A DNA stretch of 29,993 bases, taken from a virus. Below, piece after piece: positions 8,235-29,993 of the stretch (the first letter of the stretch is position 1; the number at the start of each line of letters is the position of its first letter). The stretch lies in IMG/VR virus record IMGVR_UViG_3300007611_000005, positions 1 through 29,993 of that record; one strand, given 5' to 3'. The notes beneath the pieces were generated by a model. It was not told where the DNA came from, searched no databases, and saw only the letters and a program-made list of their open reading frames with translations. Position numbers and translations under genes: made by a program.

Positions 8235-8265
8235 TCCCACATCTCCTGGTAATAGTTTGTTCTTG

Positions 8266-8272: not shown

Positions 8273-8334
8273 TGTGAAACACAAAAATCGCCCGTATATC
8301 AACGGTTAAAAAGGGGAGAAAAAGGTGCGGTCAG

Positions 8335-13905: not shown

Positions 13906-16399
13906 TTGCTATACTTTTAATTTGAATCGAACCAACCATGCTAGAATGCACAGAACATTGATATCTATAACCCCCAGAAATACTAGAAGGTATTTTCCAG
14001 TATAAAGTTCCACTGGTCTTGCCTTGGGCGTTGGTTCCTTCACTCACTGTCCCGTCTGAATCTACATGAACTAATCCTGTGCTGTAATTAGACCCGGCCG
14101 GATCCTGAACCAGAAAAGGATGTCCTTGAATATTATTAAGATCAAATGCTATAGTTAAACCACTTATCGCATATATAGTTGGATTATCACCTGAATATTG
14201 ATCGAATGTGTAGGCCGAAGCTAAATTGTTGTCTACAATTAATTTGGTAATTGCCGGAAGATAAAAATCATCAACTGTCAATGATGCATCTGTTGCATCT
14301 CCTAACTCTGAAAAATTAGCCGCGCCAGCACTACCTGTGAATCCTATTGTTAGAGTATTGCCAGATACAGATGTTGAAATATCTGTGCCGCCGGCGATAG
14401 TTAGTGTTTCTGTAGGACTATCTGCGGTTACGCTGCCGTTATCACCTTCTACAGTTTGGAATAAATCAGGAGTAGCTGCAGAACTAGCAACAGTAATACT
14501 GTTATTATCTGCATCTGTTGTAATAACAATTCCTGAGCCAGCAACTAATGTAAGTGTATCTGTAGAGTTATCTGCTACAACATCAGATTGTCCGCTTACA
14601 GCTATAGTTTCAAAAGTGTTAGACGCTATTCCTCCGCCTGCTGCCGCAATTGTAACTGTATTAGATAGTGCATCATTTGTAAGTGTAATATTCGACCCGG
14701 CCGCAAAGGTAAGCGTGTCTGATGTTGTATCGGCTGTAATGTTGTCTTGCCCAGCAACCGAAATAGTTGAAAATATGTTTTGGTCTGTTGAGGTATTTGT
14801 AATTGTAATGTTACCATCTACATCACTAGTTGTGGTAATTCCTGTGCCGCCTATAAACTTCACACTTTCCTGATTTCTTACTAACCGAATAGTAGAGTCG
14901 TCTGCGGCTATAAAAAATTCCGTTTTTGTTTCGGTTGACGCCGTTACTACTGGGCTTCCGTTTAAAATTAGATTTGTGCCATCGAAAATTAGGTTTTCGC
15001 CTGTATCCTGTATAACCTGTCCTGTTGAAGCATACCTAGCAAGTCTGTTCGCTTGTCCAGTTGATACTCCGCTTGCTTCCCCGTCGCCCGAAGTTCCGCT
15101 AATTGTAATAGAGTCGCCGCCAGGACTTGTGGATATTGATATATTAGGTCCGGCTACAAGTTGAAACGCATCCTCTGCTTGGTCTGCAACAATGTCACTT
15201 TCGCCCGATACCGTTATTCGAGTAAATGCCTGTGTTACAGCTTGCGGCGCAGTGAATGTGATTGTGTTGCTCTCCTCATCTGTTGAGATAGATAAATTGT
15301 TGCCAACTAAATTTAAACTTCCGGTGTCAGACGTTTGTTCTAAAGTAGTTTGTCCTTGCACAGAAAATGCAAGAGATTGCAGACCTGTTGAACTTACTGT
15401 AAAACTATTAGGCGAAGGAGACTGAATACTTATACCGGTTCCATTACTTAATGTCAAACCGTCATATGCAATTGAATTTAAAGGATCTGTGTAACCGACC
15501 GATACAGGATCTCCATAGCTTGTATCTGTAACTAATTTGCGCCATTCTCCTGCATGTGCATAATATAATGCTCCGGACTCATGGACATGCATTGTCATAC
15601 CATGATATGTAGCAGGCGAATAATTTGACAGCTCACTTTCTAGCTGGACAGCATTTGAATATTTGATTATGTTGTTTCCAAAATCATAGGACCCTGCTGC
15701 CCAATCTAGGTTTTCATCAGCAGTGTAGGTTATGTCTAAGGAACTTCCTGATCCGGTTCCTGGGACAGCTACTGCAATTTCGTTTCCCATATTAAGATGA
15801 TTTTGACACCAATAATAAAGAACAGAAGGTGTATCGGTTGTTACTTTAATTCTTACCCTGCGCGAAGTTGCAGATTCGAATCCGTCCCAGTAGGCTTGTT
15901 TGTTAACTGCTACATTGTCTAAAAGGTAAGTTACACCGGCGGTATACACAGTCCCATCACCTGCTTCACCGTTAGGGTCATCTGCTGAAAAATTCAAAGG
16001 ATGTTGATTATTTGTTGTGCCGGTTGCATTAGGATAATATACATTTGTGGAATCATCTTGATTAAATTCATACGTGTATCCTGCTACAAAGTTCAAAACA
16101 GGCTTGTAATCTCCATTCAGAATATACTTGTTTCCATCTCCTGTATTATTGATTGTTACAGTGTAAGATATAAATGCGGATCCCGCCGAATTGATAGCAT
16201 CTTCGAGTGTTTCTATATCTATATTTTTTAAATCGGTTCTAGCTAAAGTAGCTCCGCCTTGAATTTCCCCATCAAAAAATCTTAAGGTCTGGTTTTCTCT
16301 GTCTAGGAAAATTTCTCCTCTAGCTCCGACTCTTCTCTGTAAAAAATCAGTCTCTCTAGGAATAATTCTGATGAAGTTAAATGTTTCTGTTTTTGCCAT
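13898..16399 (-). CDS. Virion fibre protein with two cupredoxin-like domains and beta-repeats
   Basis: 833 residues. Start at 16399 (MAKTETFNFIRIIPRETDF); an upstream in-frame ATG adds only six residues. Residues 1-60 resemble phage-fibre attachment modules (GEIFLDRENQTLRFFDGEIQ). Residues ~100-210 look like a blue-copper fold with HPLNF and YYWCQNHLNMGNEI. Residues ~338-690 hold about five ~50-residue repeats of the form V-x-G-Q-x-x-[IV]-x-A-D-x-x-x-D-x-L…A-G…I-T-[IV]. Residues ~727-833 are a second cupredoxin-like domain (GHPFLVQDP, then YQCSVHSSMVGSI). Both keep His, Cys, His and Met in copper-ligand order. The protein is probably a tail or whisker fibre. It has its own late box and diverges from the island. 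Confidence 0.8.
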   Translation of the reverse strand: MAKTETFNFIRIIPRETDFLQRRVGARGEIFLDRENQTLRFFDGEIQGGATLARTDLKNIDIETLEDAINSAGSAFISYTVTINNTGDGNKYILNGDYKPVLNFVAGYTYEFNQDDSTNVYYPNATGTTNNQHPLNFSADDPNGEAGDGTVYTAGVTYLLDNVAVNKQAYWDGFESATSRRVRIKVTTDTPSVLYYWCQNHLNMGNEIAVAVPGTGSGSSLDITYTADENLDWAAGSYDFGNNIIKYSNAVQLESELSNYSPATYHGMTMHVHESGALYYAHAGEWRKLVTDTSYGDPVSVGYTDPLNSIAYDGLTLSNGTGISIQSPSPNSFTVSSTGLQSLAFSVQGQTTLEQTSDTGSLNLVGNNLSISTDEESNTITFTAPQAVTQAFTRITVSGESDIVADQAEDAFQLVAGPNISISTSPGGDSITISGTSGDGEASGVSTGQANRLARYASTGQVIQDTGENLIFDGTNLILNGSPVVTASTETKTEFFIAADDSTIRLVRNQESVKFIGGTGITTTSDVDGNITITNTSTDQNIFSTISVAGQDNITADTTSDTLTFAAGSNITLTNDALSNTVTIAAAGGGIASNTFETIAVSGQSDVVADNSTDTLTLVAGSGIVITTDADNNSITVASSAATPDLFQTVEGDNGSVTADSPTETLTIAGGTDISTSVSGNTLTIGFTGSAGAANFSELGDATDASLTVDDFYLPAITKLIVDNNLASAYTFDQYSGDNPTIYAISGLTIAFDLNNIQGHPFLVQDPAGSNYSTGLVHVDSDGTVSEGTNAQGKTSGTLYWKIPSSISGGYRYQCSVHSSMVGSIQIKSIATI

Positions 16400-16419
16400 T
16401 TTTAATGTTCCCTGCAATT

Positions 16420-16484: not shown

Positions 16485-17123
16485 ATGGATAAAATAAACT
16501 TATTCCCCGTTTCAATCTACTCTTTTAACAATGATACCCTCGATAACGACAAGTTGATTTCACTGCTGGATGACGAAACATTCGGTGAACATAATGCACT
16601 AAGCTCTATTGATAATCTGCACGTAAAAGATCAATTTTGTGGCTTATTTAATTGGATAAATTCCTGTTTAAACATGCTGAAAGATGATCATAAGTATGAT
16701 TGCGACATGCTAGAAATTTCAAGCAGTTGGGCTAATAAATATTATCGTAACTCTGATATGTATCATGCTCCACATAGACATTCTATGAGTTTATGGAGTG
16801 GAATTTATTATTTAACAGAGGGCGCGCCTACTGTGTTTGAGGACCCAGTATTTCAAAGAACACATGCTCAAATCGAAGTCCTTCAACATGAATTCTCTCC
16901 TTTTTATCGCATAAACCCAGAACCTGGAAAATTAATTTTATTTCCTAGTTGGATGTATCACTCTACTATGCCTAATTTTGATGACACTGATAGATACACA
17001 ATAAGCTTTAATGTGTTACCCACAGGTAAAATTAATTATAATTTAGCAAGAGATTCTATTGCAGTTATTAAACTAGAATCAACAATTAAGAAAGACTTTT
17101 TTGAGGAACAAACCAATGATTAA
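16485..17123 (+). CDS. Putative Fe(II)/2-oxoglutarate oxygenase (PF13759-like)
   Basis: 212 residues. It fits the 2OG-FeII_Oxy_5-type pattern: an N-terminal FPVSIYSF, then HRHSMSLWSGIYYL (H97/H99), a following D120 in FEDP, and GKLILFPSWMYHS (H159) with R170 in DRYTISFNV. These would supply the iron-binding His/Asp/His set and the 2-oxoglutarate-binding Arg. Such enzymes hydroxylate a substrate using O2 and 2-oxoglutarate. It is the only oxygenase on the plus strand; its 3' end overlaps the halogenase by 8 nt, implying the two act together. Substrate unknown. Confidence 0.75.
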   Translation: MDKINLFPVSIYSFNNDTLDNDKLISLLDDETFGEHNALSSIDNLHVKDQFCGLFNWINSCLNMLKDDHKYDCDMLEISSSWANKYYRNSDMYHAPHRHSMSLWSGIYYLTEGAPTVFEDPVFQRTHAQIEVLQHEFSPFYRINPEPGKLILFPSWMYHSTMPNFDDTDRYTISFNVLPTGKINYNLARDSIAVIKLESTIKKDFFEEQTND

Positions 17124-18627
17124 TAAATTAATTGTGTTGGGAGGCGGAACAGCAGGTCTTATAAGTGCCCTGTGTTGTAAACACGCATTTCCAAAATTAG
17201 ATGTAACCCTGATAGAATCAAAGGATATTGGAATTATAGGAGTTGGTGAGGGGTCAACAGAACACTGGGCACACCTTATGGAATATTTAGAAATCGATAT
17301 TCCTGAATTACTAAGAGAAACAGATGCAACTTTTAAAACCGGTATAAGATTTAATAACTGGCATGGCGATAACACTGAATATTGGCATGCCCTTGCCGAG
17401 TTTACTCTTTCGCAAGACCCGAGGTCGGGCTTGTACCTTAGCATGGTAGATCAAATTGCCAACGGAGAAGATGCGCTTGCATCGGTATGGAAAGAAACTT
17501 TAGAGAGTAGGCACGCCGGGCCTTTTTCTAAAAGCGTAAATCAGTTTCATTTTGATACAAAAAAACTTAATGACTATTTTCATAAAAAGTGTGAGAATAA
17601 AGGCGTAATTTTCATAAATGATACTATAGACGATGTAGAATTAGATGAAAGCGGCTTTGTATCTAAACTTCACGGAAAACAAATTTATACAGCAGATTTC
17701 TTCATTGATTGTAGCGGATTTAGAAGAGTGATTGCATCAAAGCTTGGTGTAAAATGGATAGACTGCAAAGACTATCTTCCTATGAACAGTGCCATCGCAT
17801 TTCCTACAGGATATAAGGAAGACATACCTTCGCACACTGAAGCAAGAGCTTTAAGCTCAGGCTGGATGTGGAGAATACCTACACAAAACAGATTCGGTAA
17901 CGGCTATGTTTACTGTGACGATTTCATAAATGAAGACGAAGCTATAAGCGAGGCGCAATCGCAACATTCGGATAAAATAGAAATAGCTAAAAAAATAAAA
18001 TTTTCTGCAGGATATTTAGACGAAAACTGGACAAAAAATTGTGTTTGTGTAGGTCTTGCCAGTATGTTTGTTGAACCGCTAGAAGCAACCAGCATTGGTT
18101 CTACAATACAACAGATGTTTGGTTTAATTACCAGTTTACCACATTGGCATAAAAATGATAAAACAAGTGCAAAAATATATAATAAGAGATTTAAACAGGT
18201 TTCTGAAAATATAATTGATTTTGTTCAAATACATTATATAACAGAAAGACGCGACAGTGAGTTTTGGCGCTGGATTAATTCTGACTTAATTTTGACAGAT
18301 TTTAACAGAGAATATTTAGATGATTTTAAGAAATATCTTCCTTCTCATCAACCATTCAACGATCATTTTATCATGTTTAAAAGTCTTAATTACACGCAAG
18401 TTATGTGGGGCTTGCGATTATTAGATAGGAAAGAAATAGCTAACCTTTGGGGGCAAATGCCGCATTTACATAAAAAAGCTTATAACATAAGACAGGGTAT
18501 ACTACCCCAAACTGTAAAACATAGAGAAGCAATTAATTTAGCAATGCAAGGAATTGATTTTTTAGATGCAACACCATCAGTAAACGATCTGGTAAATTAT
18601 GCTTCTAGTTTAAAAGTTACTGATTAA
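17116..18627 (+). CDS. Flavin-dependent halogenase (tryptophan-halogenase family), copy 1
   Basis: 503 residues. Start ATG at 17116 with GAGGA about 8 nt upstream; a TTG further upstream is not needed. The FAD-binding motif is at residues 9-14 (GGGTAG), followed by GVGEGS. The diagnostic halogenase motif WxWxIP is present as WMWRIP (250-255). The catalytic Lys equivalent is K74 (ATFKTGIRF), and the Glu in FVEPLEATSIG is E323. The residue after that Glu is Ser in PrnA/RebH but Ala (A324) here. These enzymes use FADH2, O2 and halide to halogenate aromatic rings; a cyanophage member (VirX1) is known to iodinate diverse substrates. No flavin reductase is in the window. The gene converges with the oxygenase operon, with 3 bp between stops. 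Confidence 0.88.
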   Translation: MINKLIVLGGGTAGLISALCCKHAFPKLDVTLIESKDIGIIGVGEGSTEHWAHLMEYLEIDIPELLRETDATFKTGIRFNNWHGDNTEYWHALAEFTLSQDPRSGLYLSMVDQIANGEDALASVWKETLESRHAGPFSKSVNQFHFDTKKLNDYFHKKCENKGVIFINDTIDDVELDESGFVSKLHGKQIYTADFFIDCSGFRRVIASKLGVKWIDCKDYLPMNSAIAFPTGYKEDIPSHTEARALSSGWMWRIPTQNRFGNGYVYCDDFINEDEAISEAQSQHSDKIEIAKKIKFSAGYLDENWTKNCVCVGLASMFVEPLEATSIGSTIQQMFGLITSLPHWHKNDKTSAKIYNKRFKQVSENIIDFVQIHYITERRDSEFWRWINSDLILTDFNREYLDDFKKYLPSHQPFNDHFIMFKSLNYTQVMWGLRLLDRKEIANLWGQMPHLHKKAYNIRQGILPQTVKHREAINLAMQGIDFLDATPSVNDLVNYASSLKVTD

Positions 18628-18630
18628 TGT

Positions 18631-19200
18631 TTAAAAGGTAAAGGGAAGGCCCGGTGCTATTTTGCCATCATATTTGAGATCAGCACTATCGCCGTTTATG
18701 TCTACATATTGAAAAAATGCTTGTGCTTGTTCTTTCCCTTTATAAGGACCGTCACGCCAGTGCGCAAATTGCCTGCCGCTATAAATTACGGCTTCTCCCT
18801 TGTTAAGCACAAATTTGTTTATGTTATTTTCATCATCTAAAATACACAAAGGCCAATTTGAATCATCATATTCCAGTGATAAACTTACTGTAAATTCGCT
18901 GCTTCGTCTGTCATAATGCTTATTTAAACGGGATCCATGTCGATATAACCGTGCATAAGTGTAACTAGGATATAGTTTTAGTTGTAGTTTGTTTTCTATT
19001 ACTGGCTGAATTATTTCCGACAAAACTTCTAAACATGGCGGACAATAAAAATTAAAACTATCCGCAAATCCTTCTTCGTATCCAGAGTGCGGTTCTAATA
19101 TTCTGGCAGCATTGGCTGCTATTTTTAATTCTCTAGTGACAAAATCTAATAATTTTTCGTCGACAATTCTGTTTAAAAAAATTGGTTTATTTAAGTTCAT
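18631..19200 (-). CDS. Putative Fe(II)/2OG oxygenase, last gene of the island operon
   Basis: 189 residues. The double-stranded beta-helix signature is H95-Y-D97 (LNKHYDRRSSEF), followed by a conserved strand LNKGEAVIYSGRQFAHW carrying the distal iron ligand H147. The expected distal Arg is less clear; K154 or K156 in PYKGKEQAQAFFQY occupies the region. A cysteine pair CPPC lies at 53-56. It belongs broadly with prolyl-4-hydroxylase-like enzymes. Its ATG overlaps the previous stop as ATGA, showing translational coupling. It ends 3 bp from the halogenase on the other strand. Confidence 0.7.
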   Translation of the reverse strand: MNLNKPIFLNRIVDEKLLDFVTRELKIAANAARILEPHSGYEEGFADSFNFYCPPCLEVLSEIIQPVIENKLQLKLYPSYTYARLYRHGSRLNKHYDRRSSEFTVSLSLEYDDSNWPLCILDDENNINKFVLNKGEAVIYSGRQFAHWRDGPYKGKEQAQAFFQYVDINGDSADLKYDGKIAPGLPFTF

Positions 19201-19727
19201 AGCGGCATCAATGAAAAATGTCTAAACGGTGGTTCTGGCTTGTCGTGAACATCAAACCCGATTGTTAATCTAGGCTCTATAAAATTGCTTTTTACATTGA
19301 CTTTATGTAATCGATGACCTGGACCTATATAGATATTTCCTATTTTATTTTTTACAGTATAATCTTCGAACTGTGTTTCCGTATCGAAAGGATTAATGTT
19401 GATATATCCATGTATCGGCCAATCGTGCCCGTGCCAACCTAGCACAGTTTCCGGTGTATGATAATTTAGCCAAGCTTGCATCCACAAAGGATCATTATGG
19501 CCTGCAAAATTTCTGATAATTAATTTAAGTTCTTGTAGTAGTTGATACCATACAGGATCGGGAGAGGTTGCACAAAACACATTATAAAGAGGATATGCCT
19601 CTGTGCTATCTCCATAAGGAAATATGTCTTTGAAAAAATCATAGACAAAATATAAATCATTTACCATTTTTGTATGATTTTTGAGAATTAATTGCGAATT
19701 ATGTATCTCGTGATCTTTGCAGTACAT
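19197..19727 (-). CDS. Putative Fe(II)/2OG oxygenase-like protein
   Basis: 176 residues. The likely core is WLNYHTPETVLGWHGHDW followed by HGYINI, with H99/H101 and D102 as candidate proximal ligands. GPGHRLHKVNV supplies a distal H141, and EPRLTIGFDV supplies R153. The spacing matches the double-stranded beta-helix of its neighbours, although the exact HxD is less clear than in most. The start overlaps the upstream gene by 29 nt; an internal Met at residue 21 would remove the overlap and may be the real start. Function inferred from motif order and from position inside a run of clear oxygenases. Confidence 0.6.
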   Translation of the reverse strand: MYCKDHEIHNSQLILKNHTKMVNDLYFVYDFFKDIFPYGDSTEAYPLYNVFCATSPDPVWYQLLQELKLIIRNFAGHNDPLWMQAWLNYHTPETVLGWHGHDWPIHGYININPFDTETQFEDYTVKNKIGNIYIGPGHRLHKVNVKSNFIEPRLTIGFDVHDKPEPPFRHFSLMPL

Positions 19728-20337
19728 CTTGTAATCCTGAAAAATTGATATTTAAAACAATCCGGTAAGGAAATTCTTTGCAAAAACTAGAAGCATGATA
19801 ATAAAATCCTGGAAAGGCAACAATTCTTCCCTTCTTCGGATAAATTTTTTGTTTTACCGAAAAGTTATTTGTGAGCATAAAATCTTGATCTTTATATTCA
19901 TAATTTTTATTAGTATCGTTAAAAATATAGGTAGGCCCGTCATTATCATTTACGTAATAAATAACATTCCAGTGTTCATAAAAACTATCAATGTGTGGTA
20001 GATGATGTTCTTTTGTCGAATTAGGATTTCGCTGTGTAAGGTTCATCCTCATGCGTTCTGTCGAGGCCTTAGGAAACATATTCATGTCCTGAATACTTAA
20101 TATCAACGGATAAAGAAAATCAAAAAATGGCGAATCGACCTTACCATCTTCGAATAAAAAATGATTTAATCCTACTGGATTGCTATCCATATATTCTTTG
20201 CCTTTAGCAAAATTTGGCGTGATTAGATTAGGATTGAAATACCACGGAAATGTGTGAGCAGTAACCCTATCTAAGATTGCATTTTGATAACTTTTTGTTA
20301 TTATATTATCTATTACTATTATATCGTCAGAACTCAT
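19699..20337 (-). CDS. Putative Fe(II)/2OG oxygenase
   Basis: 212 residues. A clear facial triad and 2OG-binding residue are visible: H115-I-D117 (HLPHIDSFYEHWNVIYYV), H181 (IVAFPGFYYHASSF) and R192 (FPYRIVLNINF). The PxxGRIVAFPG strand before the distal His is typical. Its layout (YYHAS, then R, then LNINF) is shared with the 21659-22225 protein, so the two look like diverged paralogues. The ATG overlaps the upstream stop by one base. Role: probably hydroxylation of a protein, sugar or small molecule; substrate unknown. Confidence 0.8.
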   Translation of the reverse strand: MSSDDIIVIDNIITKSYQNAILDRVTAHTFPWYFNPNLITPNFAKGKEYMDSNPVGLNHFLFEDGKVDSPFFDFLYPLILSIQDMNMFPKASTERMRMNLTQRNPNSTKEHHLPHIDSFYEHWNVIYYVNDNDGPTYIFNDTNKNYEYKDQDFMLTNNFSVKQKIYPKKGRIVAFPGFYYHASSFCKEFPYRIVLNINFSGLQDVLQRSRDT

Positions 20338-21005
20338 TAAATTTTACCGTAAAATACCATTGTTAATCTTGAATCATCTTTATCTGAGCCGAAAAAATTA
20401 TCTGCACTGTGCCAAGTTCTCGGATCGTAAATAAATGCTCTGTTAAAAACGTTTTCGACCGTAAGTGAAGGAGTAAATGTTTCTCGTTGCTGTAATCTAT
20501 ATTTACTACATTGTTTTCTTTCATCGGCACTAGATTGAAGGGTGTCCTTCCAAATCATATCTTTAAAGTCATTAGCATATGTGTCTTCCTGATCATCATA
20601 TAAAGTTGTGCCGGTATTGGCTGCAGCATGTGGGTTAAGATATATTACCCCTGAGAAGGTAACTGTAGGATCATCGTCATGCACCCACCCCTGGCCATAT
20701 GTTTCATCGACCAATTGAAAACAAACAGAAAGGTTTTGAAAACCAGAAAAAATAGGAAAATGTTTTAAAAATATACGAGCAAAGTCTGTAAATATATCTG
20801 CATCAATTTGTTCGAGAAATTTACTGCGCTGGCCTGGAATAGGCAGATCAGTATCGTAATAATCTTGTTGTAAGGCTAAGTTTCTCCATACATACGGACA
20901 AGGTAAAAAATCTTCTATAATACGACTAGGAAATCTCGGATATTTTATCCTGTTTTTTAGATCATTTTCTTTTATGAGTCTCGAACTCTCCTCTGGTGAT
21001 AGCAT
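20337..21005 (-). CDS. Putative Fe(II)/2OG oxygenase, paralogue A
   Basis: 222 residues. The iron site is H109-D-D111 in QGWVHDDDPTV and H199 in YDPRTWHSADNFFG, with R213 in DKDDSRLTMVF. The adjacent gene 21005-21658 encodes the same motifs in the same order (QGWIHDDDP, NTGTT, DPRQWHAADNYFG, DDSRYTIVFF), so the pair arose by tandem duplication and then diverged. The type resembles uncharacterised phage and bacterial DUF6445-like oxygenases. The ATG overlaps the upstream stop by one base. Long, charged, helical insert at ~137-175 (DERKQCSKYRLQQRE), matched by a similar insert in the neighbour. Confidence 0.82.
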   Translation of the reverse strand: MLSPEESSRLIKENDLKNRIKYPRFPSRIIEDFLPCPYVWRNLALQQDYYDTDLPIPGQRSKFLEQIDADIFTDFARIFLKHFPIFSGFQNLSVCFQLVDETYGQGWVHDDDPTVTFSGVIYLNPHAAANTGTTLYDDQEDTYANDFKDMIWKDTLQSSADERKQCSKYRLQQRETFTPSLTVENVFNRAFIYDPRTWHSADNFFGSDKDDSRLTMVFYGKI

Positions 21006-21658
21006 TAGTTTAATGAATCCTTGTTGTTTACAAAAAAAACAATTGTATATCTACTATCATCTTTGCTTGTGCCGAAATAATTATCTGCCGCATGCCATTG
21101 TCTCGGATCAAATATTAGACACCTATTATATCTTCCTTCGACTTTGATAGTTTCTTTAAACATTTGTTTTTGTTCTTGTTGGTGTTTTAGATAGAGATCA
21201 TTATGTTTTCTTTCTACATCTGTAACATCATCAAAAAATATATTTCCAAACTTTTCATAACTTGGATCTATCTGTTGATTGTAGATTGTTGTTCCTGTAT
21301 TTTTAGGATATTTTTTATTAAGAAATATCACTCCAGCGGCACCATAAAATTTTGGATCATCGTCATGAATCCATCCCTGGCCCCATTCTTCTGATACACA
21401 TTGTATGCTGATATCATTCTTTGTAAATTTATCGAATTCAAAAAGATGTTGTAAGAGCTTATTATCGATTATATTCTGCAGCTCAGTATTCATATTAGAA
21501 AATAAATCGGATCTATAACCGGGCCAGGTGCCTCTATCGCCTTTAAAATACTCTAATTGTTTTGCATATTCTAACCACAACGACGGCGACTCAAAAAAGT
21601 CATCTATGATAATAGTAGGAACAAGCGGTTTTATATTTTTATTTTTAAAATTTTCCAT
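21005..21658 (-). CDS. Putative Fe(II)/2OG oxygenase, paralogue B
   Basis: 217 residues. Iron ligands H98-D-D100 (GQGWIHDDDPKF) and H189 (DPRQWHAADNYFG), with R203 in DDSRYTIVFF. It is the tandem paralogue of the next gene downstream; the insert between the two halves of the core (~130-170) is rich in Gln, Glu and His (YLKHQQEQKQ). The ATG directly follows the stop of the upstream gene (TAA then ATG), so the ribosome probably moves between them. Two divergent copies suggest two substrates or two positions on one substrate; nothing shows which. Confidence 0.82.
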   Translation of the reverse strand: MENFKNKNIKPLVPTIIIDDFFESPSLWLEYAKQLEYFKGDRGTWPGYRSDLFSNMNTELQNIIDNKLLQHLFEFDKFTKNDISIQCVSEEWGQGWIHDDDPKFYGAAGVIFLNKKYPKNTGTTIYNQQIDPSYEKFGNIFFDDVTDVERKHNDLYLKHQQEQKQMFKETIKVEGRYNRCLIFDPRQWHAADNYFGTSKDDSRYTIVFFVNNKDSLN

Positions 21659-22225
21659 TTAGATAGTAAAATTAATTGTTAATGCAATTCTTTTAGTAAA
21701 TACTTTTGGGCATGTGCTTGCATGATAATAATTTCCATCAAAAACTACCGCCATGTTTTGATCAGGTTCAATGCTCTCCTTAATTGAATATGCATCACTT
21801 TCTTCTGTTTGATTGAAAATTACTGTATTTCCGTCAGAATGCATAAAATGAAAGACTGCTGTTAGATGATCAAAATCTGCATCCTTATGCGGAGAATTAT
21901 AAACATACGGTTGACTTGGAAAAGTGTAGCGTGTATTTAATAAAAAACCTAATCTCATTCTGAATACATTCTTAGGAGTTATATCTAATCTATTCATTAA
22001 TGCTTGGTGCAGAGGCGTAAATTTATCGAGAAAGGGGCTTCGATACCCGTCGTGACCCAACAGTATATGAGCAAAGGCAGGTGTATCAATACTGGGTGTC
22101 CTGCCATTTTCATATGTTGTATCTTTTATATGTGTCCAGGTTATTTCTGTGCCGTTTACAAAATCATTTATTTCTTTAAATTCGTTTGTATCTAATATTC
22201 CGTATACCAATTGAGTTTCAAACAT
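21659..22225 (-). CDS. Putative Fe(II)/2OG oxygenase
   Basis: 188 residues. The triad is H113-K-D115 (YNSPHKDADFDHLTAVFHF) and H168 (VVFDGNYYHASTCPK), with R179 in FTKRIALTINF. It resembles the 19699-20337 protein around the distal His (YYHAS) and in the closing strand. The N-terminal ~110 residues are the helical support region common to these enzymes. The gene abuts its neighbours on both sides without spacing, inside the long minus-strand operon. Confidence 0.8.
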   Translation of the reverse strand: MFETQLVYGILDTNEFKEINDFVNGTEITWTHIKDTTYENGRTPSIDTPAFAHILLGHDGYRSPFLDKFTPLHQALMNRLDITPKNVFRMRLGFLLNTRYTFPSQPYVYNSPHKDADFDHLTAVFHFMHSDGNTVIFNQTEESDAYSIKESIEPDQNMAVVFDGNYYHASTCPKVFTKRIALTINFTI

Positions 22226-22939
22226 TTAATTTATCCTATATATGTTTCTATCATTTTGCAATGCAGGGTCATCAGCTAATGTTCTGCTCCAACAAGGAAT
22301 GCTAATACTTATACGCTCGTTGCATGGTTGTGCACAGTGATAGGCTCTAGCAGGAATGTATAACATATCACCAGGATTCAAAGTTACATCTAACACTGTT
22401 TCTAATTGATCTTCTTTTAGTAGATTGTTCATTAACCCTGTCCTATAGACGCTTGATATTCTATTTTTAAATACTTTCCAATGTGTTGTTCCGTCGATTT
22501 GAACAATAAAATTTGATGGATAATCTTCGTGAATTGAAAAAGAATTAGCATTTTTCAAACCACAATATAAATGCGCATCGGTATAAACATCAAAAAAGTT
22601 TTCAAAACATCTAAGCAAATTATTTATATACTCGTTGTTATTATCGTAATTTGTTATGATTAAGCCATACCCCTGCATAAATTTATTAAAAACAAATTCT
22701 TTATCTTGCACAGTTTTTATTGAATTCCACATCTTCCTATATCTAGGAATTTCAATCTTTTGATTATGAAAATCAATTAATTCAAATTCATACATTGCAG
22801 GAAAGTTAATACAATTTTCGATAGTCGTCCAGTTAGCTAGTATTGACGGGTCGTTAAAAACATTTTCAAAGTGTACTGGTCGATCGTTATACTGTAAATT
22901 ATATTTTTTTAATATTTTTTCACATAAATTTTCAAACAT
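22226..22939 (-). CDS. JmjC/cupin-type Fe(II)/2OG oxygenase
   Basis: 237 residues. Unlike its neighbours it has the JmjC/cupin_8 order: H137-E-D139 in FSIHEDYPSNFIVQIDG, then GTTHWKVF (W154, K155 region), and LNPGDMLYIPARAYHCAQP with H201 as the distal iron ligand. Bacterial members of this group include ribosomal oxygenases such as YcfD that hydroxylate an arginine on a ribosomal protein; others hydroxylate Asn or His in proteins. This makes a protein substrate plausible. The start overlaps the previous stop by 8 nt. It is the only JmjC-type enzyme in the island. Confidence 0.82.
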   Translation of the reverse strand: MFENLCEKILKKYNLQYNDRPVHFENVFNDPSILANWTTIENCINFPAMYEFELIDFHNQKIEIPRYRKMWNSIKTVQDKEFVFNKFMQGYGLIITNYDNNNEYINNLLRCFENFFDVYTDAHLYCGLKNANSFSIHEDYPSNFIVQIDGTTHWKVFKNRISSVYRTGLMNNLLKEDQLETVLDVTLNPGDMLYIPARAYHCAQPCNERISISIPCWSRTLADDPALQNDRNIYRIN

Positions 22940-23528
22940 GCTTTACCTTAATATTAAAAGAGATAGAAATTCGCTCTCTTTCTGTTGAGCTAGGAAGAAC
23001 ACCGTGTTGTAAATTCGAAGGAAATAAGATTAATCTTTTGTTTTTAGACGGATACTTAGCAACAGTTGCACTAACAGGTGTTATTCTCTCAAAATTATTT
23101 CCTAAACTGTTCGTAAAAAATTCTTCGTGATAATTTTTATAAAAGACTATATCTCCTGATCCTTCGGGAGCCGAAAGGTAGTAAACTCCTGAGAAATCAG
23201 ATCCTCCATGAATATGGACTTGATTTATATCTTTTCCTTTGTTACAGTTAAACCACATATTATCCATTTCTAATACATGACAGGTCGGTTCTAATCCATA
23301 ATCTGATAGAATTCTACTTCCTTGGTTTAAAATTAGATCCGATATTTGTAACGTACAGTTGAATTCATTGTGGGCGAAAGATTTACTTTGCCAGCCTCCA
23401 AAATTACTTAATTCTGCTCCTACTGGGTCTTTGGTCCTGAGATCATTATATAATTTTAACAGATCTGTATTATCGAATGTAGTATCTGTCCACCAAACAG
23501 GAGTTGGAAAATAATAATCTAAATTCAT
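22932..23528 (-). CDS. Putative Fe(II)/2OG oxygenase (PF13759-like)
   Basis: 198 residues. Family signature: MNLDYYFPTPVWW at the N-terminus, VHIHGGSDFSGVYYL (H105/H107), a strand GDIVFYKN, then NKRLILFPSNLQHGVLP with H175, and R184/R186 before ISISFNI. These match the 2OG-FeII_Oxy_5 pattern that also fits the 16485, 23548 and 24920 proteins. GGAGAA lies 5-10 nt before the ATG and there is a 19-nt gap to the gene upstream. It overlaps the JmjC gene by 8 nt. Substrate unknown. Confidence 0.82.
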   Translation of the reverse strand: MNLDYYFPTPVWWTDTTFDNTDLLKLYNDLRTKDPVGAELSNFGGWQSKSFAHNEFNCTLQISDLILNQGSRILSDYGLEPTCHVLEMDNMWFNCNKGKDINQVHIHGGSDFSGVYYLSAPEGSGDIVFYKNYHEEFFTNSLGNNFERITPVSATVAKYPSKNKRLILFPSNLQHGVLPSSTERERISISFNIKVKHV

Positions 23529-23547
23529 AACTTCTCCATAAAGATAG

Positions 23548-24156
23548 TCATCCTATTATCAATTGTTGATTAGGAATACTGTTCACGCTGCCACGAACCC
23601 ATGTATCAAAGCTCAAACTTAATCTTTCGGATTGTTCCTGTGATACATATTCAACCGCATGACTTTGATAGCTAGGAAACAATAAAAGTAGTCCAGGTTC
23701 CGGACACACTCTCCATGTATTACTGTTTAACATATTTGTGCACGAAACTTCATACTGTATCTGACTATACCGATCATTTGAAAAAACAATTGCAGATTCG
23801 TGATGTTGCCAAAATAAAACACCACTAATATAGCTATTAGGATGCCTATGTAAATGATGACTTTGATGTGTATGCGTGATATTCAGCCAAGAATGTGTTA
23901 TTTCTATGTCAGCTTCGCAATCTGCATTTAGAACGTTTCGCCAAAATGTATTTAAATTTAATTCAATGTCTTTCTTGAGTATAGATAAACTTTCGTGCTC
24001 TAATATTTTTTGATTCTCAGAAATTTGATTGTTTAAATTATCTTTCCAGACCCAGTCGTCTTTATTAATATCAGGAATATCAATTACCGTTTGAAACAGC
24101 GGAACCGGAAATAGTTCGGTAATTCTAAAATCATGATTGTATTCGAATTTGTTCAT
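23548..24156 (-). CDS. Putative Fe(II)/2OG oxygenase (PF13759-like)
   Basis: 202 residues. The core is HHLHRHPNSYISGVLFW (H103/H105), AIVFSND, then PEPGLLLLFPSYQSHAV with H166 and R178 in SERLSLSFD. FPVPLFQT near the N-terminus is the family's usual first strand. The His-rich patch ITHTHQSHHLHRH at ~94-105 is denser than in its relatives. It has 15- and 19-nt gaps to its neighbours, among the loosest in this operon. No late box was seen upstream, so it probably depends on the operon promoter at 28154. Confidence 0.8.
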   Translation of the reverse strand: MNKFEYNHDFRITELFPVPLFQTVIDIPDINKDDWVWKDNLNNQISENQKILEHESLSILKKDIELNLNTFWRNVLNADCEADIEITHSWLNITHTHQSHHLHRHPNSYISGVLFWQHHESAIVFSNDRYSQIQYEVSCTNMLNSNTWRVCPEPGLLLLFPSYQSHAVEYVSQEQSERLSLSFDTWVRGSVNSIPNQQLIIG

Positions 24157-24171
24157 TTTTATAGTTTAGTT

Positions 24172-24930
24172 TCACCTGTGAGAAAATGCAAATGTATGCG
24201 ACCATCTAAAATTTGTTAAGTCGTCTATAAATGGAGTATGATATTGATTAGATCTGTATACGGTCATTGTATTTTCCATGCTAGGTAAATATCCTTCAAA
24301 CACAAAACCGAAATCAGCCAAAAAATTGCTATCAAAATTAAACCAATTCTCTGATCGTCCTTTCTGCACTAATTCCATATAATCTAAGTGCTTCCTGTGA
24401 TTAGTGTCTACCATAAAATCATATTGACCATTTATTATTTGCCCGTTATAGCTGTATAATGAAGTTCCGCTTTCGCCTCCTTGTTGTTCTAACCATAAGT
24501 TACCTACAATACCATGCAAAAAATCTATATGTGGTAAACGATTACTTATTATTGGTCTTGATTTATCCTTAAAATAAACATTTCCCCATTCAAAAATCTC
24601 AAAATTAGTAGGTGAAGGACTGTCACAGAGAAATTTTAAATAGAAATCTCGCAGTAAGAAACAAACTTCTTTGTAAGCCCACGCAGGGATATGTATGGTA
24701 TCGAACGGATTAGGATCATAATTAGTGTCTATATTATTATTTTTTTGAATAGGAAATGATCCTATAACATTTTTTATTTTTTCGAATCCGTCCTTCTTAA
24801 ATATATCTTTAAAAATCCAACAGTGTATCTCTCCAAAGTTTATGGATTCAATTTCGATATCCTGTAAACTTTTGATCTTTACTTCGTTTTTATAATTGTT
24901 CGCATCCGGAACACACCGATTAAAATTCAT
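24172..24930 (-). CDS. Putative Fe(II)/2OG oxygenase, longer form
   Basis: 252 residues, the longest non-halogenase enzyme of the island. The triad is H134-I-D136 (NRLPHIDFLHGIVGNLW) and H231 (VYRSNQYHTPFIDD), with R242 in NFRWSHTFAFSH. The span between proximal and distal ligands (~95 residues) is larger than in the neighbours and holds an insert (~160-215), which could shape a larger substrate pocket. The N-terminal ~60 residues resemble none of the other proteins. The first 11 nt overlap the end of the upstream gene. Confidence 0.75.
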   Translation of the reverse strand: MNFNRCVPDANNYKNEVKIKSLQDIEIESINFGEIHCWIFKDIFKKDGFEKIKNVIGSFPIQKNNNIDTNYDPNPFDTIHIPAWAYKEVCFLLRDFYLKFLCDSPSPTNFEIFEWGNVYFKDKSRPIISNRLPHIDFLHGIVGNLWLEQQGGESGTSLYSYNGQIINGQYDFMVDTNHRKHLDYMELVQKGRSENWFNFDSNFLADFGFVFEGYLPSMENTMTVYRSNQYHTPFIDDLTNFRWSHTFAFSHR

Positions 24931-25507
24931 AACTTCCTATGTTTATTGTCATTACAACTCTATCTTTATCCCCTCGATTCGGTTGTGTTCTATGTCGAAC
25001 CCAGCCTGGAAATATTAAAATGTCATTTGTTTTGCAATCAACTTCTTTCCATAACAATTCTTCTGGTTCTATTGATGTGTTTGATTTATGGTATTCTAAG
25101 GGATCTCTAAATTCAATATTGCCGGTGTTTTGTGGTTTATCTAAATAACAAGTTACTACTAAATCTGTCTTGTTATGATAATGTTCTAAAGTTTTTCCAC
25201 TAGGCCTGTGAATATTAAACCATGAATTTAAAATTGTATATTGTTTATCCTTAAAGCAATGATATTTACAATTCTGTTTAATTATGTTTGGTAGCCAAAT
25301 TCTAAACTCATTTAATTCGTCCCATAAGTGAATGGGTTGGTCTTGCGACGACACACTAGAGTATGAATCGCCTTCTTCCAAATATGAATGAGAAGTATTG
25401 TTTTCAGAATGCAAATACAGTTTTGCTTTCCACTCTGGAAATCTAAAATTGAACTTATATTTCCAAATTAACGAAGGAAACGGATCGACGCATATTGCAT
25501 TATTCAT
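24920..25507 (-). CDS. Putative Fe(II)/2OG oxygenase (PF13759-like)
   Basis: 195 residues. The sequence has FPSLIWKYKF at the start, TLEHYHNKTDLVVTCYL (H109/H111), NIEFRDPLEYH, then NDILIFPGWVRHRTQP (H172) and R183 in DRVVMTINI. The order and spacing follow the 2OG-FeII_Oxy_5 group. It is the first oxygenase of the minus-strand operon and overlaps the small coiled-coil gene by 8 nt and the next oxygenase by 11 nt. Substrate unknown. Confidence 0.8.
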   Translation of the reverse strand: MNNAICVDPFPSLIWKYKFNFRFPEWKAKLYLHSENNTSHSYLEEGDSYSSVSSQDQPIHLWDELNEFRIWLPNIIKQNCKYHCFKDKQYTILNSWFNIHRPSGKTLEHYHNKTDLVVTCYLDKPQNTGNIEFRDPLEYHKSNTSIEPEELLWKEVDCKTNDILIFPGWVRHRTQPNRGDKDRVVMTINIGSYEF

Positions 25508-25751
25508 CTTTCTCTAAAAAAGCTTCGTCATATGTTTCCATTGCTAGTTGAAGTCCCATTAAGACTCCTTCCATTTTAAGGATATCTTCTAACATTTCAT
25601 TTCTTTCCGAAAAATCTATTGTGGTTATTCCGTAAGGATTCAATGAAGTGTCGTTTAATTCATTTTCTAGCGTTTGTAATTTAATTTCAGTATCTTCTTT
25701 TTTATGTTTAATTTTATCTGTAACTTCTTGTAAACTTATTTTATATGTCAT
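25500..25751 (-). CDS. Small coiled-coil hypothetical protein inside the island operon
   Basis: 83 residues in two predicted helices with heptad-like character (QEVTDKIKHKKEDTEIKLQT and RNEMLEDILKMEGVLMGLQL), joined by a loop containing NPYGITTIDFSE. Not recognised. AAGGAG lies about 10 nt before the ATG, the best ribosome site in the operon. Its position between the DUF6065-like gene and eleven oxygenases suggests a subunit, scaffold or chaperone for the modifying enzymes, but that is only inference. Confidence 0.65.
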   Translation of the reverse strand: MTYKISLQEVTDKIKHKKEDTEIKLQTLENELNDTSLNPYGITTIDFSERNEMLEDILKMEGVLMGLQLAMETYDEAFLEKDE

Positions 25752-25762
25752 ATTATATCTCC

Positions 25763-26536
25763 TTATAAAGCATATTTACTTAGAACTGATTTGACTCTTT
25801 TTAATCTCGATTTTAAAGTGTCATATTTGAGTTCGGAGCATCGGAGAGCATAGTTAAAAGCTCGTTCTTTTTGCTTATCCTTTTCTGTTGCTTCTGTTAC
25901 ACTGAAATCAAAATTTGTTGAAATATATTCGTTCCTTTTTATAGGAATAAACTGTGCTAAAGGAGTTCCGGCTTTGATTATGGTTTTTGAGTTTGTTTCG
26001 TGCCAAAACAACTGAATATTTAAAACATGTGCGTATCTAGGATCTAGGATTCCTTGTGCCGAGGTAAACCTAAATTCGTTATTATAAGACACTGGCATTT
26101 GCAATAATAGATAATCGTCTGAAACTTCAACTCTCCAGGGTGTGTTTACCTTAACAACAGTTTGTAAAGTATTTTTTTTGTTTACTAGTCTGGCAGATTG
26201 ATCTTTGTCATGGAAGCCTATATAAATTTCGTTTCCGGGTGGTTTTTCGTGGGCAAACTTTATGGGTTCAATCCATTGAAAGTCAATACCATCGCCGTTT
26301 GTTTCAATAATAAAATCTGCAGGTGCAGGAATTACCCAGCCTGCATTCATAATAAGTTTTATACCTGGACAATTTTTTGTCCACATATCGCCGTTTGTAT
26401 CATGATTAAAATTAGGTAAATTTAACCACGATCTCTCAATTTGAGATGTTGGAACAACAGGAAACACATCAGGCACTCCGGGCTCGGTACTGTAAAATCG
26501 TATTTTTGGTTTTTTCTTTTTAAAATTAAACATCAT
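25763..26536 (-). CDS. DUF6065-like conserved phage protein
   Basis: 257 residues. The start is taken as ATG 26536, overlapping the halogenase stop by 11 nt; a TTG at 26545 is possible but unnecessary. The pattern KIRFYSTEPGV, then CPGIKLIMNAGWVIPAPADF, FQWIEP and AGTPLAQFIPI matches what I recall as DUF6065, often found in marine phages. The sequence is mostly beta, with a basic helical C-terminus (RAFNYALRCSELK, then SRLKRVKSVL). No iron or flavin motif is visible. It sits directly after halogenase copy 2, so it may be its partner or present its substrate. Function unknown. Confidence 0.7.
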   Translation of the reverse strand: MMFNFKKKKPKIRFYSTEPGVPDVFPVVPTSQIERSWLNLPNFNHDTNGDMWTKNCPGIKLIMNAGWVIPAPADFIIETNGDGIDFQWIEPIKFAHEKPPGNEIYIGFHDKDQSARLVNKKNTLQTVVKVNTPWRVEVSDDYLLLQMPVSYNNEFRFTSAQGILDPRYAHVLNIQLFWHETNSKTIIKAGTPLAQFIPIKRNEYISTNFDFSVTEATEKDKQKERAFNYALRCSELKYDTLKSRLKRVKSVLSKYAL

Positions 26537-28130
26537 AGTTGTCAATATTATTGTATATATTTTCTTTTAAATATTGATAATGTGTTGGGAGGGCGGATAC
26601 ATATTGTCTAACACTGTCTCTTTTGTGTAAAAATTCATTTTTTATCTTTTCAAGCTCACTTAGTCTGTCGTAGTTATATCTTGCTTTAATAAGACCAACG
26701 GTAGAAATTGATCGCATTCCCATACCAGCAATAATAAAGTTATTTCCATGATATCTATCGTTCATTGCTAGGTTTCCTATTATAGGTCCTAAGATATCTT
26801 TATAATCATATCTTGAAGATTGAAAATCGTTAAACTGCAAGGGCTCGTATTCATTTTTTTGAGTTGCCCAACGCCAGTATGCTGTGTCATTTCTTTTAGA
26901 TAATGCATAGTGCATAGAAACAAACTGTTTGAATCCTTCTATATCCGTATCAGCTGCTTTATTAAATGCTTCTCTTTCTGATCTAGTAAGATATCCGCCC
27001 CTTGTGTTTAGCATATCTACTAATCTTATAATATTTTCGTGTGTTGTTAGTAGACCTGTTGATTCTAAAGGTTCAACAAACCCATAACTTAGACCTATAC
27101 CTACTACGTTTCCTATCCAAGCACGAGTCCGCTTACCGTGCCTGATTTGGACGGGGAAAAATTTTGCTTCTTCTAGATCTACATCATGTTTCTCATTTAA
27201 ATGATTTTTAAATTCTTTCAGTGCGCCGTCATCGTCAATAAAACGACTGGAATATACGTAACCGGTCCCTATTCTGTTCCAGAGAGGTATATTCCACACC
27301 CAACCGTTGCCTAACGCATGACAATCAGTTACATTGTGCATTTGCTCTTCTCTGTTTGAATACGGAAGTCTAACTGCCCATGCTCTATCATTTGCAAGAT
27401 AATCTTCGAATGAAATAAATTGTGCGCCCATTATTTTTTCTAATAATAAAGATCTGAATCCAGTGCAATCAATAAATAAATCTGCGCCGATTTCGTCGCC
27501 CGAATCTACAAATAACTTGAATAATTTTCCTTTTCCGTCGTCAGCAAAATTTATTACATTACCTGTGATGTGTTTTACTCCATTGGGTAACGCAATATTA
27601 TTTTTTAACCATTCGCCGAATAACTGTGCATCCATATGATATGCAGTATCTAGACCGAAATCAAAAAACTTTAATTTTTTTTCTTCATTTCTTGTTTGTT
27701 TATTATATGTAGCAAGAGTAGTATTTGATAAAGCATGAAATTCTGCGAACGTCTCAGGAGTAAAAATATCCGGGTATAGGGCAGAAAGTTCATTCCACGT
27801 TTCTAATCCGTTTTCTTTTCCAAAGGTAGAATCGAACCCATGACAAAAAGGATACTCGAAAACTTCATTGTTGTTTTCTCTAAAGCTTGTAAATCTAATC
27901 GAGTTCTTGTATGTAGCATTGCAATCGGCCATCCACATCTCGTCTGTGATATCGAGCATTTTTAGAAATCTATTAATATGTCCTAGGGTAGACTCACCAA
28001 CACCTACAGTGCCGACTGATTTTGACTCTACCAACACGACATCAAGATGAGGACAAAGTTTTGCTAACGAAGCAGCAGTCATCCAGCCCGACGATCCGCC
28101 ACCAACAATACACACCTTTTTTATTTTCAT
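26526..28130 (-). CDS. Flavin-dependent halogenase (tryptophan-halogenase family), copy 2
   Basis: 534 residues, full length for the PrnA/RebH family. FAD motif GGGSSG at residues 10-15, then GVGEST; halogenase motif WVWNIP at 277-282; catalytic Lys candidate K75 (ATYKNSIRF); and FVEPLESTGL with E356 and S357, both as in RebH. It keeps every residue I would expect in an active enzyme, unlike copy 1, which has Ala in place of the Ser. It probably transfers chloride, bromide or iodide to an aromatic ring such as tryptophan or tyrosine, using FADH2 supplied by the host. It is the first gene of a 14-gene minus-strand operon, with GGAGAA upstream of the ATG and a TTAAATA late box. Confidence 0.92.
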   Translation of the reverse strand: MKIKKVCIVGGGSSGWMTAASLAKLCPHLDVVLVESKSVGTVGVGESTLGHINRFLKMLDITDEMWMADCNATYKNSIRFTSFRENNNEVFEYPFCHGFDSTFGKENGLETWNELSALYPDIFTPETFAEFHALSNTTLATYNKQTRNEEKKLKFFDFGLDTAYHMDAQLFGEWLKNNIALPNGVKHITGNVINFADDGKGKLFKLFVDSGDEIGADLFIDCTGFRSLLLEKIMGAQFISFEDYLANDRAWAVRLPYSNREEQMHNVTDCHALGNGWVWNIPLWNRIGTGYVYSSRFIDDDGALKEFKNHLNEKHDVDLEEAKFFPVQIRHGKRTRAWIGNVVGIGLSYGFVEPLESTGLLTTHENIIRLVDMLNTRGGYLTRSEREAFNKAADTDIEGFKQFVSMHYALSKRNDTAYWRWATQKNEYEPLQFNDFQSSRYDYKDILGPIIGNLAMNDRYHGNNFIIAGMGMRSISTVGLIKARYNYDRLSELEKIKNEFLHKRDSVRQYVSALPTHYQYLKENIYNNIDNYDV

Positions 28131-28153
28131 ATTTTCTCCACTAAACTTGGATA

Positions 28154-28160
28154 TATTTAA
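28154..28160 (-). promoter_or_regulatory. Late-type box driving the halogenase-oxygenase operon
   Basis: The minus strand reads TTAAATA, 23 nt before the halogenase ATG, with GGAGAA in the leader. It lies just after the terminator at 28182, so the 9.5-kb operon down to 18631 appears to start here. Confidence 0.55.
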
Positions 28161-28181
28161 CGTTTATTATCAGGGGATGAT

Positions 28182-28207
28182 AAAAAAAGCAGGGCAGGAC
28201 CTGCTTT
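28182..28207 (-). terminator. Rho-independent terminator between adhesin and island operons
   Basis: On the minus strand an 8-bp stem (AAAGCAGG with CCTGCTTT, 6-nt loop) is followed by a T run. The stem starts 17 nt after the stop of the 28224-28445 gene and so ends the adhesin operon. Confidence 0.87.
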
Positions 28208-28223
28208 ATGCAAATAAGATAGT

Positions 28224-28445
28224 TTATTCTGCTACAAATTTAGGATTCATAGCCCTATACCTATGTCCATTATGATCAGCTTCATAATCATTGCCATCGG
28301 TATCGTAAGCTAAAGACACATTATGTCCATTTATTTCTACTACTAGACTAACCTTTTTTTCAAATGAAACTAGAGAAGCTTCAAATAATTTCCCCAAAGA
28401 TACATTCTCGACCGTTACAGGACCAATTGCTCTAAGTGTAGCCAT
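28224..28445 (-). CDS. Small hypothetical protein after the adhesin genes
   Basis: 73 residues, not recognised. The sequence looks beta-rich (VTVENVSLGKLFEASLVSF, then VSLVVEINGHNVSLAYD), with an acidic C-terminal half ending DHNGHRYRAMNPKFVAE. No Cys, signal or membrane segment. Its ATG overlaps the stop of the previous gene by one base (TAATG), so it is translated with the 28445-28951 gene, and it is followed by a terminator. A fibre-tip or assembly accessory is possible from context only. Confidence 0.65.
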   Translation of the reverse strand: MATLRAIGPVTVENVSLGKLFEASLVSFEKKVSLVVEINGHNVSLAYDTDGNDYEADHNGHRYRAMNPKFVAE

Positions 28446-28970: not shown

Positions 28971-28978
28971 TATTTATC
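28971..28978 (-). promoter_or_regulatory. Late promoter box overlapping the end of the adhesin gene
   Basis: The minus strand reads GATAAATA, 19 nt before the ATG of the 28445-28951 gene. The box includes the TAA stop codon of the adhesin gene, so the two small genes can be expressed independently of it. Confidence 0.7.
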
Positions 28979-29828: not shown

Positions 29829-29840
29829 ATGTTTTTCTCT

Positions 29841-29993
29841 TTAATAATATTCGTAAACAACGACCATTCCGCCTCGGCCTATAGCACCCCTGTTTCCATT
29901 ATAATGGCCGCCTGCGCCGCCACTTCCCGGAGCGGCATGGTTGCGGTGATTATAAGAAAACTGTCCACCTTGCGGATGTCCTGCGGCTGTGTT
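29841..29993 (-). CDS. C-terminal end of a second glycine-rich adhesin
   Basis: The last 50 codons and stop of a gene that runs off the right edge. The translation ends GNRGAIGRGGMVVVYEYY. Over this stretch it matches the end of the 28974-29828 protein at almost every position (shared HPQGGQF, YNHRNHAAPGSGG and NGNRGAIGR), with changes such as TEYR to YEYY at the very end. It is therefore a tandem duplicate whose stop lies 12 bases before the next copy's ATG. How the two differ in the variable loops cannot be seen here. Confidence 0.85.
   Translation of the reverse strand, partial: NTAAGHPQGGQFSYNHRNHAAPGSGGAGGHYNGNRGAIGRGGMVVVYEYY

Follow-up and report, generated by a model that had tools for sequence, protein, structure and literature searches.

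The gp38-type proteins of T-even phages are glycine-rich fibre-tip adhesins, and Iyer et al. in 2010 reportedly described predicted peptide-modifying dioxygenases linked to glycine-rich or collagen-like proteins in bacteria. The island described below follows the same idea as those bacterial systems, of oxygenases modifying glycine-rich proteins, and differs in belonging to a phage, in its halogenases, in having about a dozen enzymes and in its linkage to fibre tips. In marine phages, the flavin halogenase VirX1 of cyanophage Syn10 (PDB 6QGM) is known as an isolated biocatalyst which, judging by the title of a 2019 paper by Gkotsi et al. that PMC10452541 cites, iodinates diverse substrates, and the 2-oxoglutarate (2OG)-Fe(II) oxygenases (PF13759, PF13640) of T4-like cyanophages and pelagiphages, with 24 copies in S-SCSM1 and 10 in S-CREM1, are reported singly as metabolic genes. 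Published proposals for these genes are nitrogen/2OG signalling or the repair of DNA (PMC3037559), protection from antibiotics (PMC2984593, PMC9964418) and a role in host metabolism (PMC9602691), and 'ferrochelatase' with 2OG oxygenases has been reported as seasonal auxiliary genes of pelagiphages (PMC11561400), a pairing that, judged by the island below, may itself be a set of oxygenases. Here we analyse a stretch of 29,993 nucleotides (the window) from the IMG/VR virus record IMGVR_UViG_3300007611_000005, in which a VirX1 ortholog, HalA, is the first enzyme of a fibre-linked operon, and oxygenases of the same families form an island at 16485-28130 whose fixed order and adhesin linkage are not described in the papers that we found. 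We consider it probable, at roughly 0.6, that this island supplies the enzymes of an exchangeable late module by which receptor-binding fibre tips are hydroxylated and halogenated. What is new is the linkage of the oxygenase-halogenase operon with fibre-tip genes; the gene set itself is already in public genomes such as that of Syn9, contrary to the earlier sequence-only reading, which knew of no set this dense. No paper describing the operon as one unit, or its tie to fibre tips, was found in a literature search that covers few subscription papers.

The island is bounded by a baseplate-wedge/fibre-connector gene (13898-16417) and a glycine-rich fibre-tip gene (28974-29828), and between these lie its 16 genes and two small genes. 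The sequence-only reading had placed twelve oxygenase candidates and two halogenases among the 16; this held, and its coordinates and gene count proved right. Eleven oxygenases, HalA, a phrog_7084 protein and a coiled-coil-like protein (cc83) form a tightly packed minus-strand operon, which converges with a plus-strand pair of one oxygenase and HalB. The enzyme genes are as follows.

16485-17123, plus strand: oxygenase upstream of halB (PF13759, 2.9e-18)
17101-18627, plus strand: HalB, second predicted flavin halogenase, convergent to the operon (PF04820, 3e-100; nearest PDB entries tryptophan halogenases)
18631-19200, minus strand: oxygenase-like protein, PHROG name 'ferrochelatase' (phrog_2954, 3e-43; invariant H95, D97, H147; weak 2OG Pfam matches)
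19197-19727, minus strand: oxygenase-like ox2696, 176 aa (hhalign to the PF13759 profile, probability 91%, 1e-6; H99, H101, H141, R153)
19699-20337, minus strand: oxygenase ox274b, PHROG name 'DNA endonuclease V' (PF13640, 8e-5, sub-threshold; H115, D117, H181, R192)
20337-21005, minus strand: DUF6445 oxygenase-like protein, paralog of the next (1.7e-11; phrog_1644, 1e-25)
21005-21658, minus strand: DUF6445 oxygenase-like protein (1e-15; H98, D100, H189, R203; phrog_1644)
21659-22225, minus strand: oxygenase ox274a, PHROG name 'DNA endonuclease V' (PF13640, 1.1e-3, sub-threshold; H113, D115, H168, R179)
22226-22939, minus strand: JmjC_2/Cupin_8 oxygenase (5.6e-17; nearest PDB entry the histidyl hydroxylase NO66, 8e-8; H137, D139, H201)
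22932-23528, minus strand: oxygenase ox5c (PF13759, 2.8e-20; family profile matches 3bvc, 4e-25, and 2rg4, 4e-23)
23548-24156, minus strand: oxygenase ox5b (PF13759, 2e-15; phrog_81)
24172-24930, minus strand: oxygenase ox1644, 252 aa, PHROG name 'minor coat protein' (AlphaFold2 fold; H134, D136, H231, R242)
24920-25507, minus strand: oxygenase ox5a (PF13759, 3.6e-13; H109, H111, H172, R183)
26526-28130, minus strand: HalA, predicted flavin halogenase, VirX1 ortholog (PF04820, 2.7e-104; 6QGM, E=7e-187 over the full length; 53% identity to Syn9/Syn10, 57% to S-CREM1)

The linkage of these enzymes to fibre tips is seen well beyond the window. A halogenase-seeded search gave 80 viral loci, 71 with enough upstream sequence and 53 with 8.5 kb downstream; a glycine-rich tip gene or p168, a conserved 168-aa protein gene, lies within five genes upstream of halA in 67 of the 71, a median of 10 oxygenases follows halA in the 53, and 592 of 642 adjacent gene pairs (92%) keep the canonical order. 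This order runs from a long fibre gene through small genes, three glycine-rich genes, p168, halA, the phrog_7084 gene and cc83 to ox5a, ox1644, ox5c, JmjC, ox274a, two DUF6445 genes, ox274b, ox2696 and 'ferrochelatase'. In a JmjC-seeded check, set up to falsify the linkage, glycine-rich tip genes and a halogenase were present in all 42 loci with full flanks, and the nine loci lacking a tip gene were every one a shorter contig piece. The block is carried by the cultured Kyanoviridae Syn9 (with two halogenases), S-CREM1, P-TIM40, Sf-FP1, S-RIM44 and P-RSM6, and also, in nearly fixed order, by Syn10 and dozens of uncultivated marine phages; Syn9 and S-CREM1 hold an orthologous oxygenase cluster, and the VirX1 gene of Syn10 is arranged as in Syn9, between p168 and phrog_7084 homologs. 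The gene set is thus conserved as a unit in related phages, a point on which the sequence-only reading could have failed; in databases its genes are annotated singly, under scattered and partly wrong names. When eight cassette proteins were compared with PADLOC defence models, no match reached E<=1e-3. A cellular origin was sought in a single scan of genome contigs with the phrog_7084 profile, which returned phage-like DNA only, namely a single-cell contig of Prochlorococcus and a stretch resembling P-TIM40 within an assembly labelled Nonlabens xiamenensis (L094); the latter is probably a contaminating or co-assembled phage.

Tip linkage extends to T4-like phages without a halogenase near the tip gene, where PF13759 genes lie within 6 kb of a PF21722 tip gene in six of eight (rotation p=0.003; over all genomes tested 13 of 15, p=5e-5), p values that are optimistic in that the phages are related. 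In the halogenase-free T4-like phages S-SM1 and S-RSM4, about ten oxygenase-like genes and a 4Fe-4S protein stand behind the glycine-rich tip gene, and in pelagiphage HTVC008M five to six oxygenases are grouped at the tip gene with the halogenase about 8 kb away. The 4Fe-4S protein of S-SM1 and S-RSM4 (233 aa, phrog_33749; L114:9317-10018 and L115:3941-4642) resembles a QueG-type C-terminal domain.

Enzymes and tips also diverge together. Among ten genomes, the similarity of the enzymes correlates with that of the fibre tips (Mantel rho 0.90, p=2e-4) but not with that of the sheaths (rho 0.10, p=0.26); the genome whose sheath is most similar to that of the window (G009) differs from it considerably in both tip and enzymes, and the window's cassette proteins are 44-45% identical to those of Syn9 and S-CREM1 and 45-47% to those of most lineage mates. 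The phage of the window is no typical cyanophage. Its portal shares 63-76% identity with lineage mates and about 33% with Kyanoviridae, and its sheath has its closest counterparts in PA5oct-like and Phosso jumbo phages, with an alignment to Kyanoviridae confined to the last ~175 residues (41%). The block is exchanged between phage lineages together with tip genes and not with the virion core. Because it travels with tip genes between unrelated phages, its probable role is to modify chemically the host-gripping part of the virus, and not to serve host metabolism, the usual explanation of such genes. The window is a fragment of its virus, and a 128.7-kb contig is 99.99% identical over the island. 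Four Kyanoviridae-type records contain psbA, but a check of ten contigs belonging to the window's lineage or resembling it, the longest of 266 kb, did not find the gene; the host is therefore probably not a cyanobacterium, although these contigs are fragments. The window's sheath is unusually long (1138 aa), and sheath and two tail-tube-like paralogs occupy 4866-8282 and 3067-4863.

Promoter boxes suggest late expression of the cassette. The 100 nt ahead of halA contain an ATAAATA box in 45 of 78 orthologs (58%), as do those ahead of p168 in 42 of 63 (67%), against an expected 0.9%, and such boxes are nearly absent ahead of internal operon genes. Since they precede halA and p168 in orthologs, late co-expression of the cassette with fibre genes is likely. 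The late-type box claimed by the sequence-only reading holds for the orthologs and not for the window, whose copy is degenerate. Across the window ATAAATA-type boxes are no more frequent than expected; six of its ten matches stand just upstream of gene starts (1755, 4161, 10398, 10412, 16420, 28971), mostly of virion genes and in the right orientation, which is consistent with T4-type late promoters. The operon start and the remaining features of the island and its flanks are as follows.

13898-16417, minus strand: baseplate wedge/fibre connector protein flanking the island (phrog_677, 2e-49; ATAAATA box upstream at 16426-16420)
25500-25751, minus strand: 83-aa coiled-coil-like protein cc83 (no Pfam or PHROG match)
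25763-26536, minus strand: phrog_7084 protein (dUTPase-like predicted fold, moderate confidence)
28131-28223, minus strand: operon start region, a terminator-like hairpin (AAGCAGG...CCTGCTT and a T run) followed by the degenerate late-type box TTAAATATA
28224-28445, minus strand: 73-aa protein p73, found in some relatives
28445-28951, minus strand: 168-aa conserved protein p168 (phrog_1787; adhesin and halogenase on either side in most loci)
28974-29828, minus strand: glycine-rich fibre-tip adhesin-like protein, proposed substrate (PF21722, 2.9e-9; phrog_863, 9e-49)
29829-29993, minus strand: DNA repeat of the glycine-rich adhesin region (83.6%), end of an upstream paralog cut by the window end

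HalA and HalB are predicted halogenases, with full-length PF04820 matches of 350 and 337 bits (cut-off 21; 3e-104 and 3e-100) and the superfamily motifs GxGxxG, WxWxIP, Lys and Glu. K75, W277/W279 (WVWNIP) and E353/E356 of HalA, and K74, W250/W252 (WMWRIP) and E320/E323 of HalB, are conserved at 93% or more; the Lys and Glu residues we take to be catalytic by analogy with RebH/PrnA. Over its full length HalA is nearer to VirX1 than to tryptophan halogenases (625 versus 259 bits), and HalB is not VirX1-like.

The oxygenase assignment is strong for ten of the twelve candidates, moderate for 19197-19727 and motif-only for 18631-19200. Profile searches gave Pfam matches above cut-off for seven (four PF13759, one JmjC_2/Cupin_8, two DUF6445) and PF13640 matches below it for two (19699-20337 and 21659-22225). 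For ox1644, which has no Pfam match, the fold was settled by structure prediction: its AlphaFold2 model is a 2OG-oxygenase double-stranded beta helix (pLDDT 94.8) with OGFOD1, NO66 and the PF13759 structures 3bvc and 2rg4 as best PDB matches, and since it shares phrog_1644 with both DUF6445 proteins this fold can be extended to them. Alignment to PF13759 by hhalign was not significant for ox1644 or for the 'ferrochelatase' family, and the 18631-19200 protein, whose fold is not settled, is the least certain candidate. Facial-triad residues are in place in all twelve, with ligands conserved at 93% or more in every family except duf6445b, where a mixed family blurs the count. Seven candidates have HxD..H; the four PF13759 proteins and ox2696 have HxH..H, so that a third His stands in the place of the carboxylate. 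An Arg follows the distal His by 11-14 residues in most families and by 8 in JmjC, and none was seen in 18631-19200. Protein hydroxylases are among the solved structures closest to two of the candidates: NO66 in the case of JmjC, and OGFOD1, NO66, PHD2 and P4H-EF-Tu in that of ox1644. The ribosomal oxygenases NO66, MINA53, YcfD and OGFOD1 are protein hydroxylases, and the JmjC and ox1644 proteins have them as nearest solved relatives and share their fold, although at low sequence identity. PHROG calls phrog_2954 'ferrochelatase', phrog_274 'DNA endonuclease V' and phrog_1644 'minor coat protein'; oxygenase-like proteins bear these labels, which recur in GenBank/RefSeq records (Syn9, P-TIM40) and in an ecological survey. 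A ferrochelatase identity for phrog_2954 was not supported, as 11 members matched no ferrochelatase Pfam family and a ferrochelatase chain matched only at E=0.88; the nearest, weak, Pfam match of the window's 189-aa protein is a 2OG oxygenase.

We propose that a late transcript would begin just ahead of halA. From it would come the halogenase of VirX1 type, the coiled-coil protein, the protein with a dUTPase fold and some eleven Fe(II) oxygenases, at the stage when the fibre-tip genes directly upstream are expressed too. The oxygenases would hydroxylate side chains of the glycine-rich tips and/or the long fibre, and HalA and HalB would halogenate aromatic side chains of the same proteins with host FADH2 and sea-water halide. 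Both the predicted activities and their order are conditional on this scheme, in which modification would precede virion assembly and the benefit would be a tuned or protected receptor-binding surface, with phages swapping tip genes and matching enzymes as one block. Like the gp38-type adhesins, the marine tips are short, glycine-rich and downstream of a long fibre gene; unlike them, they have invariant His, Tyr and Glu residues, and they match no solved structure in sequence. Tip homologs were found with PF21722 and a purpose-built profile, since BLAST with the glycine-rich protein gave a single record, for which its low-complexity filter is probably responsible. In 148 sequences E134, Y167, F179, H197 and H220 are invariant, residues whose role could equally be structural, and His, Tyr and Trp are richer in halogenase-linked tips (12.4% versus 4.9%). 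The adhesin motif GGGGxxH we take, as a lead only, to resemble the NO66 site in Rpl8 (GGGNH).

Several observations weigh against this proposal. The tips are named as putative substrate from genomic linkage, and co-divergence shows a linked module and not by itself a function, because neighbouring genes co-transfer whatever their role. Four halogenase loci (L063, L068-L070) have no tip genes nearby, PF13759 genes occur elsewhere in these genomes too, and the nine oxygenases of S-SZBM1 have been described as scattered (PMC9146016). The His/Tyr enrichment of halogenase-linked tips is real, but adhesin subfamily is a confounder, and Syn33 weakens the argument, since it has a related His/Tyr-rich tip protein with only one or two neighbouring oxygenase-like genes and no halogenase; the conserved His is therefore not halogenase-dependent. 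Enzymes with folds similar to ox1644 include some whose substrate is DNA or a small molecule (ABH2, AndA), and passages of PMC9964418 on the S-CREM1 virion proteome mention no such modification and name no search for it.

The same linkage data would apply if the enzymes altered a host target late in infection, such as a surface glycan or a protein of the outer membrane or the ribosome, with tip genes adjoining by way of the same receptor; one purpose might be to keep superinfecting phages out. A ribosomal target is possible, the JmjC enzyme being nearest to ribosomal-protein hydroxylases such as NO66. However, expression from the late promoter box of the orthologs would come late for taking over the host, psbA-bearing cyanophages share the cassette with a lineage in which no psbA was found, and no export signal or membrane segment was noticed, albeit without a systematic search; we regard a host target as unlikely. 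Both flavin halogenases and 2OG oxygenases are common tailoring enzymes in natural-product pathways, which counts towards a halogenated and hydroxylated small molecule, secreted or intracellular, as the product of the block. The breadth of VirX1 substrates and the PrnA-like antibiotic protection proposed in PMC9964418 point the same way. Such a product would not predict the tight linkage and co-divergence with fibre tips, though, and no polyketide synthase or non-ribosomal peptide synthetase, scaffold-building, carrier, ligase or transport gene was recognised by Pfam/PHROG annotation in the window's block, whose gene set related loci share, so that we judge it slightly less likely still. Auxiliary metabolic or repair functions, namely 2OG drawdown steering nitrogen signalling, DNA repair or 'ferrochelatase'-based haem metabolism, are the published interpretations (PMC3037559, PMC9602691, PMC11561400, PMC9146016) and in our estimate highly improbable, since they leave the late box, fixed order, dozen divergent paralogs and adhesin linkage unexplained, the window's 'ferrochelatase' has a conserved HxD..H, and the finding of psbA in Kyanoviridae-type records but in none of the ten contigs from the window's lineage or similar speaks against a cyanobacterium-specific metabolic role. 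Modification of the virion, which the sequence-only reading had suggested, remains the best-supported interpretation through tip synteny, co-divergence, the late promoter of orthologs and block exchange, and is partly supported overall.

The genes around the enzymes have features of their own. The glycine-rich adhesin paralogs (window 28974-29993) stand in tandem with conserved DNA repeats (77-86%), which suggests gene conversion; locus L003 has three adhesin genes in tandem, and the second glycine-rich copy of Syn9 appears internally duplicated and frameshifted. p168 is possibly a fibre assembly chaperone. The label 'DUF6065-like' given earlier to 25763-26545 was not supported, as there was no Pfam match at E<=0.1; this phrog_7084 protein has ILDPRY and GTPL(A/C)Q stretches like dUTPase motifs, and distant relatives in the haloarchaeal tailed viruses HRTV-7 and HRTV-15. 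In L091:3411-11377, the two long fibre-like proteins upstream (1868 and 775 aa) have several CBM_5_12 carbohydrate-binding modules, which possibly bind chitin.

2OG oxygenases are frequent and unexplained genes of marine phages, usually taken as host-metabolism genes. We suggest tentatively, at less than even odds, that many marine T4-like phages may own a dedicated, modular pathway of post-translational tailoring, with about a dozen Fe(II) oxygenases and iodinating, brominating or chlorinating halogenases that puts hydroxyls and halogens on glycine-rich tips and is swapped with them, and that this may be the native role of VirX1 and of many 2OG-oxygenase and 'ferrochelatase' auxiliary genes. 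If this is true for many of these genes, auxiliary-gene surveys would need reinterpretation, the natural role of the iodinase VirX1 would be testable in cultured phages (Syn9/Syn10, S-CREM1), and marine host range would hinge on chemistry that is invisible in fibre sequence alone.

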